The position numbers and the translations under genes are program-made. A stretch of DNA of 64,000 nt, from the NCBI GenBank assembly GCA_028282785.1, contig JANQHE010000021.1, positions 186,001-250,000 on the forward strand. Reading direction: 5' to 3'. This document shows, piece after piece, positions 7,926 through 31,804 of this stretch (the first letter of the stretch is position 1; every line of letters begins with the position of its first letter). The DNA is from Bacteroidales bacterium. GTDB taxonomy: Bacteria > Bacteroidota > Bacteroidia > Bacteroidales > UBA12077. Under the pieces are notes generated by a model that worked only from the letters and a program-made list of their open reading frames with translations, did no database searches and was not told where the DNA came from.

Positions 7926-8110
7926 AAAACCAGCAGCTTAATCATTCTTTTTAAGAATATAGTTAGTTGATTTTAATTTCCATTCTAAACTTTAACAATA
8001 GCAAGTTTAACAATTTATTTATTCAAAAAAAAACCATCGAAGTAATTTCGCCAATATATATTTCGAAATTGCAAGTGGTTAATAACTTATAAATTCAATA
8101 ATATAAATCG

Positions 8111-8142
8111 TTTTGTTAAAAATTTCTATATATTTATCTTAG
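8111..8142 (+). promoter_or_regulatory. Bacteroidetes-type promoter for gmhA
   Basis: TTTTG (8111-8115), a 19-nt spacer and TATCTTAG (8135-8142) match the -33 TTG / -7 TAnnTTTG arrangement used by the Bacteroidota primary sigma factor, with one mismatch in the -7 box. It lies 26 bp before the gmhA start. Confidence 0.6.
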
Positions 8143-8167
8143 CAAAATCACTTAAATAGAAAAATAG

Positions 8168-8734
8168 ATGAGCGGTATAAAAAATGATTTTCTGGAAGCG
8201 CAAAAGATATTAAATGAATTTGTTTCGGATGAAAAAAACTTCGATAATATAAAATCCGCAGGAAATATAATTTTAGAATCTTTAAGATCAGGAAAAAAAG
8301 TGATTTCATGTGGTAACGGAGGTTCAATGAGTGATGCGATGCATTTTGCTGAAGAATTAACCGGTCGATTTAGAGATAATCGACCAGCAATTGCTGCTAT
8401 GGCAATTTCAGATCCTACACATATTTCATGCACAGCAAATGATTATGGATATGATTTTATCTTTTCAAGATATATTGAGGCCGTTGGACAACAAGGCGAT
8501 ATACTATTTGCCATAAGCACCAGTGGTAATTCTAAAAATGTCCTGGAAGCTTGTAAAGTAGCTCGAGAAAAAGGAATTAAAATTGTGGCTTTAACAGGAA
8601 AAAGCGGAGGCAAATTAGCTAAAGAATGCGATATTGAGATAAGAGCCCCAAAATCTGATTATGCTGACAGGGCTCAGGAAATTCATATAAAAATTATTCA
8701 CTCGTTGATTCATTATATAGAAGAAAACCTTTAG
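8168..8734 (+). CDS. gmhA: D-sedoheptulose 7-phosphate isomerase
   Basis: 188 residues, full length. It is a single SIS domain with the sugar-phosphate loop [17 protein letters not shown] near residues 45-61 and the second loop [14 protein letters not shown]. It converts sedoheptulose 7-phosphate to D-glycero-D-manno-heptose 7-phosphate, the first step towards heptose for lipopolysaccharide core or glycans, in the cytoplasm. No other heptose genes are nearby. Its own promoter is visible upstream. The next gene, yifB, starts 14 bp after its stop. Confidence 0.93.
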
Positions 8735-8748
8735 AAAATCTTTCCTTT

Positions 8749-10287
8749 ATGTTAGTTAAAACCTTTGGAAGTGCTGTTCAGGGCATTAATGCAACAACTA
8801 TAACTATTGAAGTAAGTGTATCACAAGGAATAAATTTCTATTTGGTAGGATTACCGGATAGTGCAGTAAAAGAAAGTCAGCAACGAATTGACTCCGCCCT
8901 GCGTACAAATGGTTATAAAGTACCTGGTAAGAAGATCGTAATTAATATGGCTCCTGCCGATATACGAAAGGAGGGCTCAGCATATGACTTGCCATTGGCC
9001 ATTGGAATATTGGCAGCATCGGAACAGATTAAATCGGATGAAGTTCATAAATATGTGATCATGGGTGAACTTTCGCTGGATGGTGGATTGCAGAAAATTA
9101 AAGGAGTTTTACCTATAGCAATTCAGGCACGAAAAGAAGGTTTTAAGGGATTTATTTTACCAAGGGAAAATGCACGGGAAGCAGCGGTAGTTGACGACCT
9201 CGAAATATATGGTGTAGAAAACATACAGGAAGTGATTGATTTTTTTAACGAAGAAAAAAAACTGGAACAAACCTTTGTTGATACTCGTGATGAATTTTTT
9301 ACAAATATAAATAACTATGATGCTGATTTTTCTGATGTAAGAGGACAGGAGAATGTTAAACGTGCTTTGGAAATTGCAGCCGCCGGTGGACATAATATTG
9401 TAATGATAGGTCCTCCGGGAGCTGGAAAAACGATGTTGGCCAAAAGAATTCCTACAATTATACCACCACTTACACTGCATGAGGCTTTGGAGACAACCAA
9501 GATTCATTCTGTTGCAGGAAAAATCGATGGTGATACATCTTTAATGACTCGAAGGCCATATAGAAGTCCGCATCATACCATTTCCGATGTTGCATTAGTT
9601 GGCGGAGGAGGATATCCTCAACCTGGTGAAATTTCTTTAGCCCATAATGGAGTGCTATTTCTGGATGAATTGCCTGAATTCCAAAGATCTGTTTTGGAAG
9701 TTATGCGACAACCTCTTGAAGACAGGATAATAACGATTAGTCGTGCGAAATTTACAGTTGAATACCCGGCAAGCTTTATGTTAATTTCATCTATGAATCC
9801 ATGTCCTTGCGGTTATTACAACCATCCGGAAAAGGAATGTGTTTGTGCACCGGGAAATATTCAAAGATATTTAAATAAGATATCTGGTCCTTTATTAGAT
9901 CGTATTGATATTCACGTTGAAGTTGTGCCGGTTTCGTATGATGAACTGTCAGAAGTAAAGCCTGCTGAGAGTAGTGAAGAAATCAGGGATAGAGTAATTG
10001 CAGCACGGGAAAGACAGTCACAAAGATTTGATGGAAAGGATCAAATACACTGTAATGCACAAATGTCATCAAGAATGATCAGAGCGCATTGTGAAATTGA
10101 TTCGGCAGGTAAAACTTTGCTTAAGAAAGCGATGGAAAAACTCGGATTATCGGCCCGAGCCTATGATCGTATTTTAAAAGTTGCAAGAACAATAGCAGAT
10201 CTGGAAGGTACGGAAAAAATACAATCTTATCATTTAGCTGAAGCAATTCAATACCGAAGCCTGGATAGAAGTGGTTGGGGAAATTGA
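8749..10287 (+). CDS. YifB/ComM family Mg-chelatase-like AAA+ ATPase
   Basis: 512 residues. The N-terminal Lon-protease-like domain ([15 protein letters not shown]) is followed by an AAA+ core with Walker [11 protein letters not shown] near residue 221 and Walker [10 protein letters not shown] near 301, a Cys-rich loop [17 protein letters not shown], and a C-terminal Mg-chelatase domain (about 400-510). ComM is a hexameric helicase that promotes branch migration during natural transformation in other bacteria. It is probably co-transcribed with gmhA. Confidence 0.95.
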
Positions 10288-26630: not shown

Positions 26631-28166
26631 ATGTTACATTTATTCAAATATCCTAAACTATTTATAATTTTTCTGTTTACGGTTCCGGTTATCGAATGTA
26701 ATTCTCAATCAGACGCAAAACAGGTAGAAGTTTGTATTAATAGGGAACCTGTTGTTGCGGGAACATTTTATCCGGAAAACCCTGCAGCTTTGAAAGTTCA
26801 GCTGGAATCATTATTTGCACAAGCTTCTAAGGTTAAAACGTATGATCATATTTTGGCAATTATTGCCCCGCATGCAGGTTATGTTTATTCCGGCAAAGTT
26901 GCAGCTTCTGCTTACAACCAGATAGATGCCGATAAAGAATATGAAAATATTTTCGTGATAGCATCAAGTCATCGTACGCTTTTTAAGGGAGCTTCAATTT
27001 ATAATCAGGGAGATTATGTTACTCCTTTGGGAAAGGTAAAAGTTAATCGGGATTTAGCCAATAAATTAATTGAAGAAAATAAAATATTTAGTTTTAACCC
27101 GGAAGCACATTCTGCCGAACATAGTTTGGAGGTTCAGTTGCCGTTTTTGCAATATAAAATGAGAAAGGATTTTCAGATAGTGCCTATTGTAACCGGAACA
27201 CAGACTTTAGGAGAAGTAAAACAGATTGCAAAAGTGTTGGAACCTTACTTTAATGAACGAAATCTCTTTGTAATAAGTACAGATTTTTCACATTATCCTG
27301 ATTATGAAAATGCGATATTAGCTGATAAAAAGACAGGTGAAGCCATATTATCAAATTTAGCAAATAGGCTAATTGATGCAATTAATGAAAATGCATCCGC
27401 GAATATTGAGAATTTGGTTACAAGTATGTGTGGATGGCCAGCAGTTTTAACTTTATTAAATATTACGGAGAAAGACCGATCCTTAGAAATTATTCCTGTA
27501 GTGTATCAGAATTCTGGTGATGCTCTGGGAGATAAAAGCAGAGTAGTTGGTTATCATGCTATTGTTTTTGCTAAGAAAAAATTATCAAATATGTCAGAGA
27601 ATCAGTTTATCTTAACTATTGATGAAAAGGAAGAGCTTTTAAAAATCGCCAGACAAACGATTAATGAATATCTAACTTCCGGGAAATATCCAAAAATTGA
27701 TCAATCAGTAATAACACCTGCTATGGAATCCAGATGTGGAGCATTTGTTAGTCTTCATAAAGAAGGAGCTTTAAGAGGTTGCATTGGGCGTTTTGTTGCC
27801 GATGTACCGCTATACGAAATTATACAAAGAATGGCCATTGCTGCTGCTACTGAGGATCATAGGTTCCCTGTTGTGGAAATGGATGAAATGAATAATATAG
27901 ATTTGGAAATATCTGTTTTAACTCCTTTAAAGAAAATTGAATCAATCGATGAGATCGAAATGGGAAAGCATGGAATTTATATTAAAAAAGGTTTTGCTAC
28001 AGGTACTTTTTTACCGAAAGTTGCTTTACAAACCGGCTGGACCAAAGAAGAATTTTTGGGATATTGCGCGAGAAATAAAGTGGGAATAGGTTGGGAAGGT
28101 TGGAAAGAGGCAGATATTTATACTTACGAAGCTTTGGTTTTTGATGAGGAAGACATAAAAAAATAA
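26631..28166 (+). CDS. amrB: AmmeMemoRadiSam system B-A fusion (Memo-like plus AMMECR1), probably exported
   Basis: 511 residues. A hydrophobic N-terminus (about 10-21) ends near Cys23 (VIECNS), an export signal or poor lipobox. The Memo-like domain (about 36-315) carries His81 (APHAGYVYSG), His114 (SSHRTLFKG), STDFSHY and Cys267 (SMCGWPAV), matching the putative metal-site residues of Memo proteins. The AMMECR1 domain (about 325-511) has LRGCIGRF at 381-388. These are components B and A of the AmmeMemoRadiSam system, whose reaction is unknown. First gene of a four-gene plus-strand run; the system's radical SAM enzyme is the last. The fusion is seen directly; export is inferred from the N-terminus. 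Confidence 0.93.
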   Translation: MLHLFKYPKLFIIFLFTVPVIECNSQSDAKQVEVCINREPVVAGTFYPENPAALKVQLESLFAQASKVKTYDHILAIIAPHAGYVYSGKVAASAYNQIDADKEYENIFVIASSHRTLFKGASIYNQGDYVTPLGKVKVNRDLANKLIEENKIFSFNPEAHSAEHSLEVQLPFLQYKMRKDFQIVPIVTGTQTLGEVKQIAKVLEPYFNERNLFVISTDFSHYPDYENAILADKKTGEAILSNLANRLIDAINENASANIENLVTSMCGWPAVLTLLNITEKDRSLEIIPVVYQNSGDALGDKSRVVGYHAIVFAKKKLSNMSENQFILTIDEKEELLKIARQTINEYLTSGKYPKIDQSVITPAMESRCGAFVSLHKEGALRGCIGRFVADVPLYEIIQRMAIAAATEDHRFPVVEMDEMNNIDLEISVLTPLKKIESIDEIEMGKHGIYIKKGFATGTFLPKVALQTGWTKEEFLGYCARNKVGIGWEGWKEADIYTYEALVFDEEDIKK

Positions 28167-28170
28167 TTAT

Positions 28171-28500
28171 ATGAGTACATACGGATTTTTACCAGTTACT
28201 GTAATTTGTTTAATAATATATTTTTCAAGCTACTTTTTAACAAAAACAAGATACCTAAAGTTTACCAAGCATCGTCGTATCTGGAATTTAATTTTGCTTG
28301 TTTCTTTTTTAGTTGCCGGTTCAATAGGAATATTTATGTCTTTTGTCTACAGTTTTGAATTAAATATTGATATACCATACTTTTTACTGCAACTGCATGT
28401 AGGAGTAGGAATAGTATGGTTTATAATAGCTTTTTTTCATTTTTTATGGCATCTTACCTACTTCAAAAAGGCAATTAAAATTATTTTTTCTAAAAGGTAG
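28171..28500 (+). CDS. Small three-helix membrane protein with spaced histidines
   Basis: 109 residues with membrane helices at about 6-23, 38-60 and 70-94. Histidines at 34, 76, 90 and 94; His76 and His90 are 14 residues apart along the last helix, a spacing known from haem-binding helices of b-type cytochromes. It vaguely recalls DUF4405-like proteins, but I cannot assign a family. It begins 4 bp after the B-A fusion and ends 2 bp before the next gene, so it belongs to the operon. A redox role is inference. Confidence 0.8.
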   Translation: MSTYGFLPVTVICLIIYFSSYFLTKTRYLKFTKHRRIWNLILLVSFLVAGSIGIFMSFVYSFELNIDIPYFLLQLHVGVGIVWFIIAFFHFLWHLTYFKKAIKIIFSKR

Positions 28501-28502
28501 GT

Positions 28503-30632
28503 ATGACAAGGAATTATCAGATAAAACTAGTAAAGCCTGGCATTATATTACTGGGTTTTATTGCAATTGCCACCCAGATTATTTTACTACGAGAGTTTTT
28601 AACATTATTTAATGGAAATGAGCTGGTTATAGGAATCATTCTGGCAAACTGGATGTTGCTGACAGGTTTTGGAGCTTATTTAGGGAAATTTATTGGGAAT
28701 AAAGGAAATAGGACTCAATGGATTTTAACTTTACTGGGTATTTTAGCATTTGTTCCAATTGTTACTGTTTTGATTTTACATGTTGCATGGTATTCTCTGT
28801 TTCTTCCAGGTGTGATGGCAGGTATATTACATGTTTTTTATTATTCTTTAATCATTCTTTTTCCATTTTGCGTTATTTCAGGGATATTATTTACTCTATT
28901 TGCTCAAGAAGAATCTGTGATAACAAATAAGAACAGGATCGGAGATGTTTATGCCTGGGAATCTCTTGGAAGTATAATAGGAGGAATAATTATCAATTTT
29001 ATTTTAATCCGGATTTCAACAACATTCCAAAGTTTATATATAGTTATGGTTGTTGTTGTGATGGTTACAGTTTATTTAGGTATTAGAAATAGTAAATATC
29101 TTAAATCAGGATTAATAATTATTGCATCCTTCATTTTTAGTTATTTTTTCATGAGCAAAGATCTGGATAAGAAAGTTCGTGAAATGGCATTTCCTTCTCA
29201 GAAGTTAACATATATGAGTGATTCTCCGTTCGGAATTTTTGCAATTACGGAGCAAGAGGATCAACTTAATTATTACGAGAATAATATACTTATGGCTTCT
29301 TCAGGAGATATTATAAGTAAAGAAGAATCAGTACATCTTGCAATGGTTCAGCATAAAGATCCTAAAACGGTCCTGGTATTGTCGGGACTTATTTCAGGTA
29401 TAATGGAGGAAGTAAGCGAATATGAAATTAAGCATGTTGATTATGTTGATATTAACCCTGAAGTATTTAATATAGCAAAACATACTTTAAATCCGGAACG
29501 ATATCAAACACTTAACTTAATTGAATGTGATCCTGTTAGATTTTTAAGAAAAAATGATAACAAATATGATGTTGTATTAATAAATTTTCCCAAACCATCT
29601 ACAATTCAATTAAACCGATATTATACAAAAGAATTTTTTCAGTTGTTAAAAGAAAATCTCAATAAAGGTGCTGTAGTATCACTATCAATGCCATCGAGTG
29701 CTAATTATCTAAGTGATGAGGTGAAAAAACAATTATCAATAATATTTAAAACCTTAAACACGGAATTTAAAAATGTATTGATTCTTCCGGCAAGCGAGGA
29801 TTTTTTAATTGCATCTGATAATGATTTAACATATAAAATTACAGAAACCATAGAATATTTGAATATCCCAACAGAATATGTTAATTCATATTATTTCGAT
29901 GATTATTTATTAGAATCCAGAAGTAAGCAATTACATCGGCAAATTGATCACTCAACTCTTGTTAATCAGGATTTTAGTCCGGTATTTTATCAAAGTCAGA
30001 TACAATTATGGATGAGTTATTTCAATATCAGGTACTGGATACCGGCACTATTTATTTTACTATTTTCAGGATTCTTTTTTTTCAAAGCCGGTACAATTTA
30101 TAAGGGAGTTTTTGCTGCCGGATTTGCAGGAACAAGCATAGAAATTATTTTGCTTTTAGTATTCCAAGTAGTTTTTGGCTATGTATATGCAATGGTTGGT
30201 ATTTTTATAATGATTTTTATGGGAGGATTGGCATATGGCTCTTATTATCTTCCTAAATTTTTAAAAGAAATAGATTTACTTCGATTTAAATATCTACAAA
30301 TTGGCATTTCTGCTTTTGCTTTTTTATTACCAATTATCTTTATTTTGATTAAAAACATAGAAATTCCGGAAGTGATTTTATTTATCATTTTTGCTTTGTT
30401 GATTTTTGTAATATCGGTATTAACAGGAGCAGTTTTTTCAATTGCAAGCAAAATTTCACAAAAAGATTATGGTAGTATAGCTTCCAGGGCATATGGTTTA
30501 GATCTACTTGGGGCAGCAACCGGGGCTTTGATACTTACAATATATCTCATTCCTTTACTTGGATTTATATGGTCTGTATTAATAACGGGTTTTTTTAATT
30601 TAATTTTGGTAATGACTAGTAAATCCAAGTAA
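28503..30632 (+). CDS. Polytopic membrane protein with degenerate spermidine-synthase-like domain
   Basis: 709 residues. About six membrane helices (about 10-220) precede a Rossmann methyltransferase-like domain (about 225-480) and about six further helices (about 505-705). The middle domain aligns by eye with spermidine synthases: SGDIISKEESVHLAMVQH, VDYVDINPEVFNIAKHTL and YDVVLINFPKP. However, the glycine-rich GGGDGG loop reads SGLISG and the catalytic Asp of the DSSDP motif is replaced (NFPKP). Aminopropyl transfer is therefore unlikely. It sits between the AmmeMemo fusion and the radical SAM gene and may be the membrane partner of that system. Confidence 0.87.
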   Translation: MTRNYQIKLVKPGIILLGFIAIATQIILLREFLTLFNGNELVIGIILANWMLLTGFGAYLGKFIGNKGNRTQWILTLLGILAFVPIVTVLILHVAWYSLFLPGVMAGILHVFYYSLIILFPFCVISGILFTLFAQEESVITNKNRIGDVYAWESLGSIIGGIIINFILIRISTTFQSLYIVMVVVVMVTVYLGIRNSKYLKSGLIIIASFIFSYFFMSKDLDKKVREMAFPSQKLTYMSDSPFGIFAITEQEDQLNYYENNILMASSGDIISKEESVHLAMVQHKDPKTVLVLSGLISGIMEEVSEYEIKHVDYVDINPEVFNIAKHTLNPERYQTLNLIECDPVRFLRKNDNKYDVVLINFPKPSTIQLNRYYTKEFFQLLKENLNKGAVVSLSMPSSANYLSDEVKKQLSIIFKTLNTEFKNVLILPASEDFLIASDNDLTYKITETIEYLNIPTEYVNSYYFDDYLLESRSKQLHRQIDHSTLVNQDFSPVFYQSQIQLWMSYFNIRYWIPALFILLFSGFFFFKAGTIYKGVFAAGFAGTSIEIILLLVFQVVFGYVYAMVGIFIMIFMGGLAYGSYYLPKFLKEIDLLRFKYLQIGISAFAFLLPIIFILIKNIEIPEVILFIIFALLIFVISVLTGAVFSIASKISQKDYGSIASRAYGLDLLGAATGALILTIYLIPLLGFIWSVLITGFFNLILVMTSKSK

Positions 30633-30670
30633 TACAGAAACATATCCTGTATGTTAAACGTTATACTATT

Positions 30671-31804
30671 ATGGGTAAGAAAATTACTAAACGGGAATTT
30701 TTAAAGTGTGGATTTTTAGGAGCCTGTACTTGTACATTAGGTCTTGGTAAGGTGCATGCAATGTCAGACACTTTATCAAATAATGATTTATGGAAATGGA
30801 GTAAGCTTTCAAAACATTATATCGATACACCTAGAGGAGCAAAATGTTTGATTTGCCCAAACGAATGTACATTAAAAGAAGGAGAGGTTGGCGATTGCAG
30901 GTCAAGAGTTAACTATAAAGGTAAAATATACTCAATAGGTTATGGTAATCCTTGCTCACTGCACGTTGATCCAATTGAAAAAAAGCCATTATATCATTTT
31001 TTACCTGAAAGCAAAACGTTTTCTTTAGCAGTAGCTGGTTGTAATTTAGCATGTTTAAATTGCCAAAACTGGCAAATCTCACAGGTTGGTCCTGAAGAAA
31101 CCAGGAATTATGATTTAATGCCCCCTGAAGTTTACAAACAAGCAAAACACTATAGATGTAAATCAATCGCATATACTTATTCTGAACCTATTGCTTTTTA
31201 CGAATATTTCCTGGATTCTTCGAAAATAGCAAACGAAAACGGTATCAAAAATGTAATGGTTTCTGCAGGTTATATTAATGAAAAACCTTTAAGGGAGGTT
31301 GCCAAATATATTCATGCAGCCAATATTGATTTAAAAAGTTTTGATAATGATATTTACGCACGTTTAAATGCAGGCGAAGTTCAGCCAATTTTAGATACCT
31401 TAAAGATTTTGAAAGAAGAAGGCGTTTGGTTGGAAATTACTAATCTTATTGTTCCCGAATGGACCGATAATGTGGATATGATAAAACAAATGTGCAGTTG
31501 GTTATATAAAAATGGATTTAAAGATACTCCATTACATTTCAGTAGATTTACCCCAATGTATAAACTTACTCATTTACCTCATACGCCTATTTCTACCCTT
31601 AATAAGGCATATGAAATTGCTAAAAATACAGGATTAAATTATGTATATATAGGGAATGTTCCCGGATCAAATGCACAAAATACCTATTGTCCAGGTTGTA
31701 ACAAAATAGCCATTGAGCGAAAAGGTTATAAAATTATTCAATATAATATTATTAACGGAAAATGTAAGAGTTGCAATACTGCTGTAGCAGGAGTATGGAG
31801 CTGA
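30671..31804 (+). CDS. amrS: AmmeMemoRadiSam system radical SAM enzyme with Tat-like N-terminus
   Basis: 377 residues. The radical SAM cluster motif is C124-x3-C128-x2-C131 (GCNLACLNCQNW). Family-typical extra cysteines lie before it (C59, C62, C66, C76) and near the C-terminus (CPGC and CKSC). The first 30 residues read like an export signal: KKITKREFLK (a KR version of the twin-arginine motif), a hydrophobic stretch with LGAC at 16-19, and VHA-M at 28-31. Export of the folded Fe-S enzyme by Tat is therefore possible, though the KR pair is not the standard RR. Last gene of the run that begins with the Memo-AMMECR1 fusion, 38 bp after the previous gene. Confidence 0.94.
   Translation: MGKKITKREFLKCGFLGACTCTLGLGKVHAMSDTLSNNDLWKWSKLSKHYIDTPRGAKCLICPNECTLKEGEVGDCRSRVNYKGKIYSIGYGNPCSLHVDPIEKKPLYHFLPESKTFSLAVAGCNLACLNCQNWQISQVGPEETRNYDLMPPEVYKQAKHYRCKSIAYTYSEPIAFYEYFLDSSKIANENGIKNVMVSAGYINEKPLREVAKYIHAANIDLKSFDNDIYARLNAGEVQPILDTLKILKEEGVWLEITNLIVPEWTDNVDMIKQMCSWLYKNGFKDTPLHFSRFTPMYKLTHLPHTPISTLNKAYEIAKNTGLNYVYIGNVPGSNAQNTYCPGCNKIAIERKGYKIIQYNIINGKCKSCNTAVAGVWS

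Follow-up and report, generated by a model that had tools for sequence, protein, structure and literature searches.

The window, by which we mean the whole stretch of 64,000 nucleotides of Bacteroidales DNA that was analyzed, carries a four-gene AmmeMemoRadiSam locus, and the sequences of the encoded proteins and their homologues make it very probable that this system is located outside the cytoplasm. Taking the evidence as a whole, we lean toward an extracytoplasmic AmmeMemoRadiSam system with an MFS partner that may move or hand over SAM or clear its products. We know of no radical SAM enzyme that acts outside the cytoplasm, and none was found in a literature search with limited open-access coverage. 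If the reading is true, cells have to bring both SAM and low-potential electrons to the outer side of the membrane. Memo and AMMECR1 have human relatives that are linked to disease, and the reaction catalyzed by AmmeMemoRadiSam is, to our knowledge, unsolved across the whole family. The gene set provides a handle on this long-unsolved reaction, because extracytoplasmic substrates (a lipid, a lipoprotein or an envelope polymer) form a much shorter list than those of the whole cell. In the open-access literature, we found only passing mentions of AmmeMemoRadiSam function; a 2019 study by Burroughs, cited in PMC7159879, reportedly describes Memo-AMMECR1 contexts.

The gene set, its catalytic residues and its distribution

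Four plus-strand open reading frames, separated by gaps of 4, 2 and 38 bp, encode in this order a fusion of components B and A (BA), a small membrane protein (M109, hereafter CYT), a large membrane protein (M709, hereafter SPD) and the radical SAM component (rS), as listed in Table 1. An earlier sequence-only reading had described this order, these gaps and the B-A fusion, all of which were borne out by the ORF coordinates and by matches over the cutoffs of the NCBIfam models: the B part of BA scored 250.9 bits against TIGR04336 (cutoff 26), the A part 160.6 bits against TIGR04335 (cutoff 99) and rS 353.5 bits against TIGR04337 (cutoff 220). The BA domains also matched PF01875 and PF01871 in Pfam.

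Table 1. Features of the AmmeMemoRadiSam locus in the window
Feature	Position	Strand	Description
BA fusion	26631..28166	+	511 aa; B (Memo-like) residues 38-313, A (AMMECR1) residues 335-504
BA N-terminal export signal (predicted)	26631..26699	+	residues 1-22, lipobox-like Cys23 (VIE|CNSQ); max KD(12) 2.97
M109/CYT	28171..28500	+	109 aa; three-helix membrane protein, DUF4405/b561-like candidate b-haem protein
M709/SPD	28503..30632	+	709 aa; 14-helix MFS-fold membrane protein with inserted SpdSyn-fold domain (AlphaFold model)
SPD soluble domain	29154..30032	+	residues 218-510; predicted extracytoplasmic; NFPKP at 361-365; D316 and D343 kept
rS	30671..31804	+	377 aa; AmmeMemoRadiSam radical SAM enzyme; TIGR04337
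rS Tat-like signal (predicted)	30671..30760	+	residues 1-30; motif T-K-R-E-F-L-K; weakly hydrophobic h-region

The CX3CX2C motif of rS (C124, C128 and C131) was kept in all 110 signal-bearing copies, and eight further cysteines, located N-terminally (C59, C62, C66 and C76) or C-terminally (C340, C343, C365 and C368), were present in 109 to 110 of them. The BA metal ligands H81, H114 and C267 align with H49, H81 and C244, the ligands of the iron-binding protein MEMO1 (PMC11081632; PDB 7KQ8); among SPD-linked BA proteins, H81 and H114 were kept in 100% and C267 in 97%. Judged by these residues, the exported rS and BA copies appear active.

The same genome carries a second AmmeMemoRadiSam set on another contig (G000 C24; L075 6175-8825), with the unfused order A, rS, B. 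Component A of this canonical set (176 aa) scored 67.5 bits, under the cutoff of 99 (E = 8.7e-19), while rS (336 aa) and B (276 aa) scored 333.7 and 241.3 bits, respectively; these proteins are signal-less, and the N-terminal extension is absent. When 136 rS cores were arranged in a tree, the canonical rS fell into a separate signal-less clade of 12 members, a placement that indicates that the window locus is a distinct, additional system and not a housekeeping copy.

We sought further loci in order-level genomes and by a scan of public genomes, and found BA, SPD and rS together in 66 distinct loci belonging to Bacteroidota (including Bacteroidales), Ignavibacteria, Chlorobiota and possibly archaea. 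Because most of these loci come from metagenome-assembled genomes and were retrieved by similarity to the window rS, the counts describe the lineage of the window rS and not all AmmeMemoRadiSam systems. One cultured, named species, Mangrovibacterium marinum DSM 28823, has the module, and SPD is rare, occurring in 7 of 296 Bacteroidota genomes in an even draw. The order BA, SPD (with CYT where detected) and rS was found in nearly all of the 66 loci. BA lay on the other strand in 23 loci, and fewer than 100 bp separated SPD from rS in 48. No other gene, including genes for electron transfer or substrates, recurred in more than eight of the 66 neighborhoods. The possibility that the locus is an oddity of one genome was ruled out by the 66 loci.

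Several loci differ from this layout. Four contigs from archaeal metagenome-assembled genomes (L140, L153, L157 and L166, provisionally binned as Woesearchaeota, Nanoarchaeota, Aenigmatarchaeota and Theionarchaea) encode related rS proteins, mostly with Tat-like signals and BA, and in the rS tree these proteins clustered together among the signal-bearing rS. In L071 (6949, 8177, 9477) and L074 (7649, 8902), two or three divergent rS genes, whose signals are Tat-like and of the RR type, stand in tandem together with a single SPD gene; BA was not seen on the stretch. In L053, L055 and L141, the gene directly after a signal-bearing rS encodes another rS, which has no signal and belongs to a different lineage.

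Export signals and the location of rS

Signals were called by simple hydropathy and motif rules, namely a strongly hydrophobic N-terminus for BA and Memo proteins (12-residue KD mean of at least 1.6) and a [KR]R-x-F-[LI]-type motif with a hydrophobic stretch for rS. The hydrophobic N-termini that the sequence-only reading had seen on both soluble partners were confirmed, and they recur in the homologues. A Sec-type or lipoprotein-type signal was present in 61 of 61 BA or Memo proteins adjoining SPD, compared with 3 of 8 without SPD; signal-less BA and Memo occur where SPD is missing. Similarly, 93 of 96 rS proteins adjoining SPD had a weakly hydrophobic Tat-like signal, compared with 17 of 42 without SPD, and several of these 17 lie on short contigs. 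Two of the three signal-negative SPD-linked rS are second tandem copies (L053 and L055), and the third contains TRRDF with a hydrophobic stretch below the threshold. The strict Tat-like motif was found in 79 of the 96 SPD-linked rS, compared with 3 of the 694 remaining proteins encoded in these loci. In the closest relatives, the signal codons have changed synonymously while the motif has been preserved, which indicates that the region is translated and constrained. Chance signals were ruled out by the 694-protein control set and this codon comparison.

A cysteine in the pattern Cys-x-x-Q follows the hydrophobic N-terminus in 28 of the 61 SPD-linked BA or Memo proteins. The window BA has VIEC where the lipobox is [LVI][ASTVI][GAS]C; the Glu at –1, directly before the Cys, is atypical.

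The median hydropathy of the h-region was 1.69 for rS and 2.63 for BA (p = 4e-23), and the weaker rS value fits the reported pattern in which Tat signals are less hydrophobic than Sec signals (PMC10924467). The net charge around the rS h-region falls from +3.5 before it to +0.2 after it, which argues that rS is oriented N-in, C-out. The extra cysteines, at 2.3 per protein in exported rS versus 0.6 in the canonical clade, show no depletion and are uninformative on the compartment.

An alternative for the location of rS is that its N-terminus is an uncleaved membrane tether or a non-working signal, such that rS would act on the cytoplasmic face with ordinary SAM and ferredoxin; BA would then be the sole exported partner, or would itself be tethered. 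This arrangement would agree with the cytoplasmic location of SAM and low-potential electrons, and with the prevalence of KR over RR in the rS motif (91 versus 18, n = 109), which extends across phyla, includes the window (30689-30694) and is weak for Tat. It would also accommodate L085 and L138, two SPD-less loci in which BA has a hydrophobic N-terminus and rS has no signal, and in which the BA and rS signals can therefore be uncoupled. However, full RR motifs occur in some relatives (L071, L074 and L051), the charge bias places the rS catalytic domain outside, the soluble domain of SPD is also predicted outside (see below), the rS signal tracks SPD in the proportions given above and the same genome encodes a canonical signal-less set. 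Given these points, we regard a cytoplasmic, tethered rS as distinctly unlikely. Salmonella TtrB, which is also an iron-sulfur protein, is a natural KR Tat substrate.

A gene for TatC is present in the genome that contains the window (C34:169736-170437), and TatC was not found in G098, a genome of 93% completeness with a Tat-like rS. Tat-signal family profiles gave no match among the matches listed, and the Fe-S Tat-signal model was touched weakly by 2 of 24 members. In the divergent relative L067, a plain N-terminal membrane anchor stands in place of the Tat-like signal. In L138, the place of SPD between BA and rS is taken by a protein (8017-8892) that resembles metallophosphoesterases and carries an RR signal of the Tat type (MNRRKFIK).

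Homologues that share the gene order could have lacked signals, in conflict with the proposal of an exported system; instead, they carry them. The homologue signals, their coupling to SPD and the predicted topology strongly support export of BA and rS.

The two membrane proteins

SPD matched the Pfam family Spermine_synth (PF01564) with 64.7 bits (cutoff 22.9). In its AlphaFold model (pLDDT 88.2), a soluble domain lies between a first set of seven membrane helices and a second bundle with room for another seven. Compared end to end, the model resembled SV2A (Z 25.8, 343 aligned residues) and POT transporters (Z of about 22, about 370 aligned residues), and the inserted domain matched the spermidine synthase fold (Z 27.8). 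The two six-helix bundles by which we tested for the MFS fold were found in the model, and transport is predicted.

We assigned the SPD helices from the model and counted Lys and Arg residues in the short loops of 57 homologues. The mean count was 13.1 inside versus 1.9 outside, and every one of the 57 homologues showed the bias in this direction, which places the SpdSyn-type domain outside the membrane. In this domain, the base-providing catalytic Asp of the DSxDP motif is absent at position 361 in all 57 homologues (Asn in the window), and the second Asp is Lys in the window. Acids are kept at the positions where spermidine synthases bind the nucleoside, according to alignment with structures of these enzymes, with Asp or Glu at 316 and D343 in 57 of 57 each. 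The sequence-only reading had recognized a dead aminopropyltransferase-like domain in the window, and the loss of the catalytic Asp extends this description to the whole family. Despite clear homology to the polyamine aminopropyltransferases, it is highly improbable that SPD is an active aminopropyltransferase outside the membrane, in view of both substituted Asp residues and of scores far under the equivalog cutoffs (66.6 bits for speE, cutoff 249.6). The domain looks like one that binds without aminopropyl transfer, as far as its residues tell.

The combination of an MFS fold with a nucleoside-binding-type domain outside suggests SAM supply or product removal. It is possible, although somewhat doubtful, that SPD serves the exported enzyme by handling SAM or a nucleoside derived from it. 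A competing explanation is that the exported rS does not turn over multiple times: it would use SAM bound beforehand in a single reaction, or its clusters would serve electron transfer alone, and SPD would be unrelated to SAM, for example as a polyamine or lipid transporter. An MFS fold alone gives no substrate, and we know of no SAM supply or low-potential reductant outside the membrane; both points would suit such an explanation. However, CX3CX2C and the rest of the rS fold are strongly constrained in the 110 copies, and the adenosyl-holding acids of spermidine synthases that SPD keeps would be superfluous in a polyamine-only role. We therefore consider this explanation unlikely.

CYT scored 16.5 bits against DUF4405 in Pfam, below the gathering cutoff of 26.7. 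Among 24 relatives, H76 and H90 are invariant and H34 is nearly so. Each of the DUF4405, b561 (prokaryotic and eukaryotic) and ferric reductase families was matched weakly by between 6 and 11 of these relatives. The fold resembled hydrogenase-1 cytochrome b with a middling score (Z 6.5), of the kind that helical bundles give. The likeness to DUF4405 cytochromes is accordingly put forward only as a claim about how CYT may work; haem binding is predicted, and CYT is a candidate haem protein. CYT is fused to the SPD N-terminus in 26 of the 66 loci and separate in one, which is the window arrangement; in the remaining loci it was not detected. Because this leaves over half of the loci without a detected CYT, the protein is not a general electron source, and we only tentatively propose it as an electron path in the loci that have it. 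The same genome also encodes ApbE and FMN-binding proteins, and therefore other electron routes to the outside may exist.

It had been suggested that both membrane proteins anchor the exported reaction or feed electrons to it. For CYT, this stands to the extent that it is a plausible haem carrier. For SPD it does not, since the model is of the MFS type and points to a protein of the transporter kind more than to one that supplies electrons.

Proposed mechanism and comparison with known systems

In the extracytoplasmic system toward which we lean, rS would fold and acquire its iron-sulfur cluster in the cytoplasm before export by Tat, and BA would be exported by Sec and probably lipid-anchored in the window organism. 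In the periplasm, rS and BA would act together by radical chemistry on an extracytoplasmic substrate, either lipid or protein. The MFS-SpdSyn protein may export SAM or return products such as 5'-deoxyadenosine, with its outside domain holding the nucleoside rather than reacting it, and the DUF4405-like cytochrome, where present, may pass electrons across the membrane. We know of no established route for SAM export, nor of one by which an enzyme of this kind would receive low-potential electrons in the periplasm. The most specific version, which combines a complete radical SAM system outside the cytoplasmic membrane with a dedicated transporter for SAM or SAM products (an MFS carrier with an inactivated SpdSyn domain as outside nucleoside receptor), is on the unlikely side.

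Compared with the AmmeMemoRadiSam system as known, the window locus has all three components over the curated cutoffs and keeps the catalytic Cys residues and the Memo metal ligands. It differs in the fusion of A and B, in the export signals on BA and rS, in its two membrane partners and in the presence of a signal-less canonical set in the same genome. The His, His, Cys metal site of MEMO1 is likewise kept in the window BA, which, unlike MEMO1, bears a predicted export signal and continues into an AMMECR1 domain.

The cofactor of DUF4405 and FezC proteins is b haem, and FezC was modelled to form its haem sites by homodimerisation (PMC11334425). CYT shares with these cytochromes the character of a small membrane protein with conserved His residues. 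However, it has a sub-threshold score and is often fused to SPD, and no ApbE gene recurs at the locus.

SPD shares with NF037959 (fused MFS/spermidine synthase) and PRK03612 a spermidine-synthase domain combined with membrane helices, and 46 of the 57 homologues matched NF037959 at E ≤ 0.001. The window SPD, however, falls below both cutoffs (31.4 versus 40 and 124 versus 472 bits, respectively), has lost the catalytic Asp, and has its domain predicted outside, between two MFS-like bundles.
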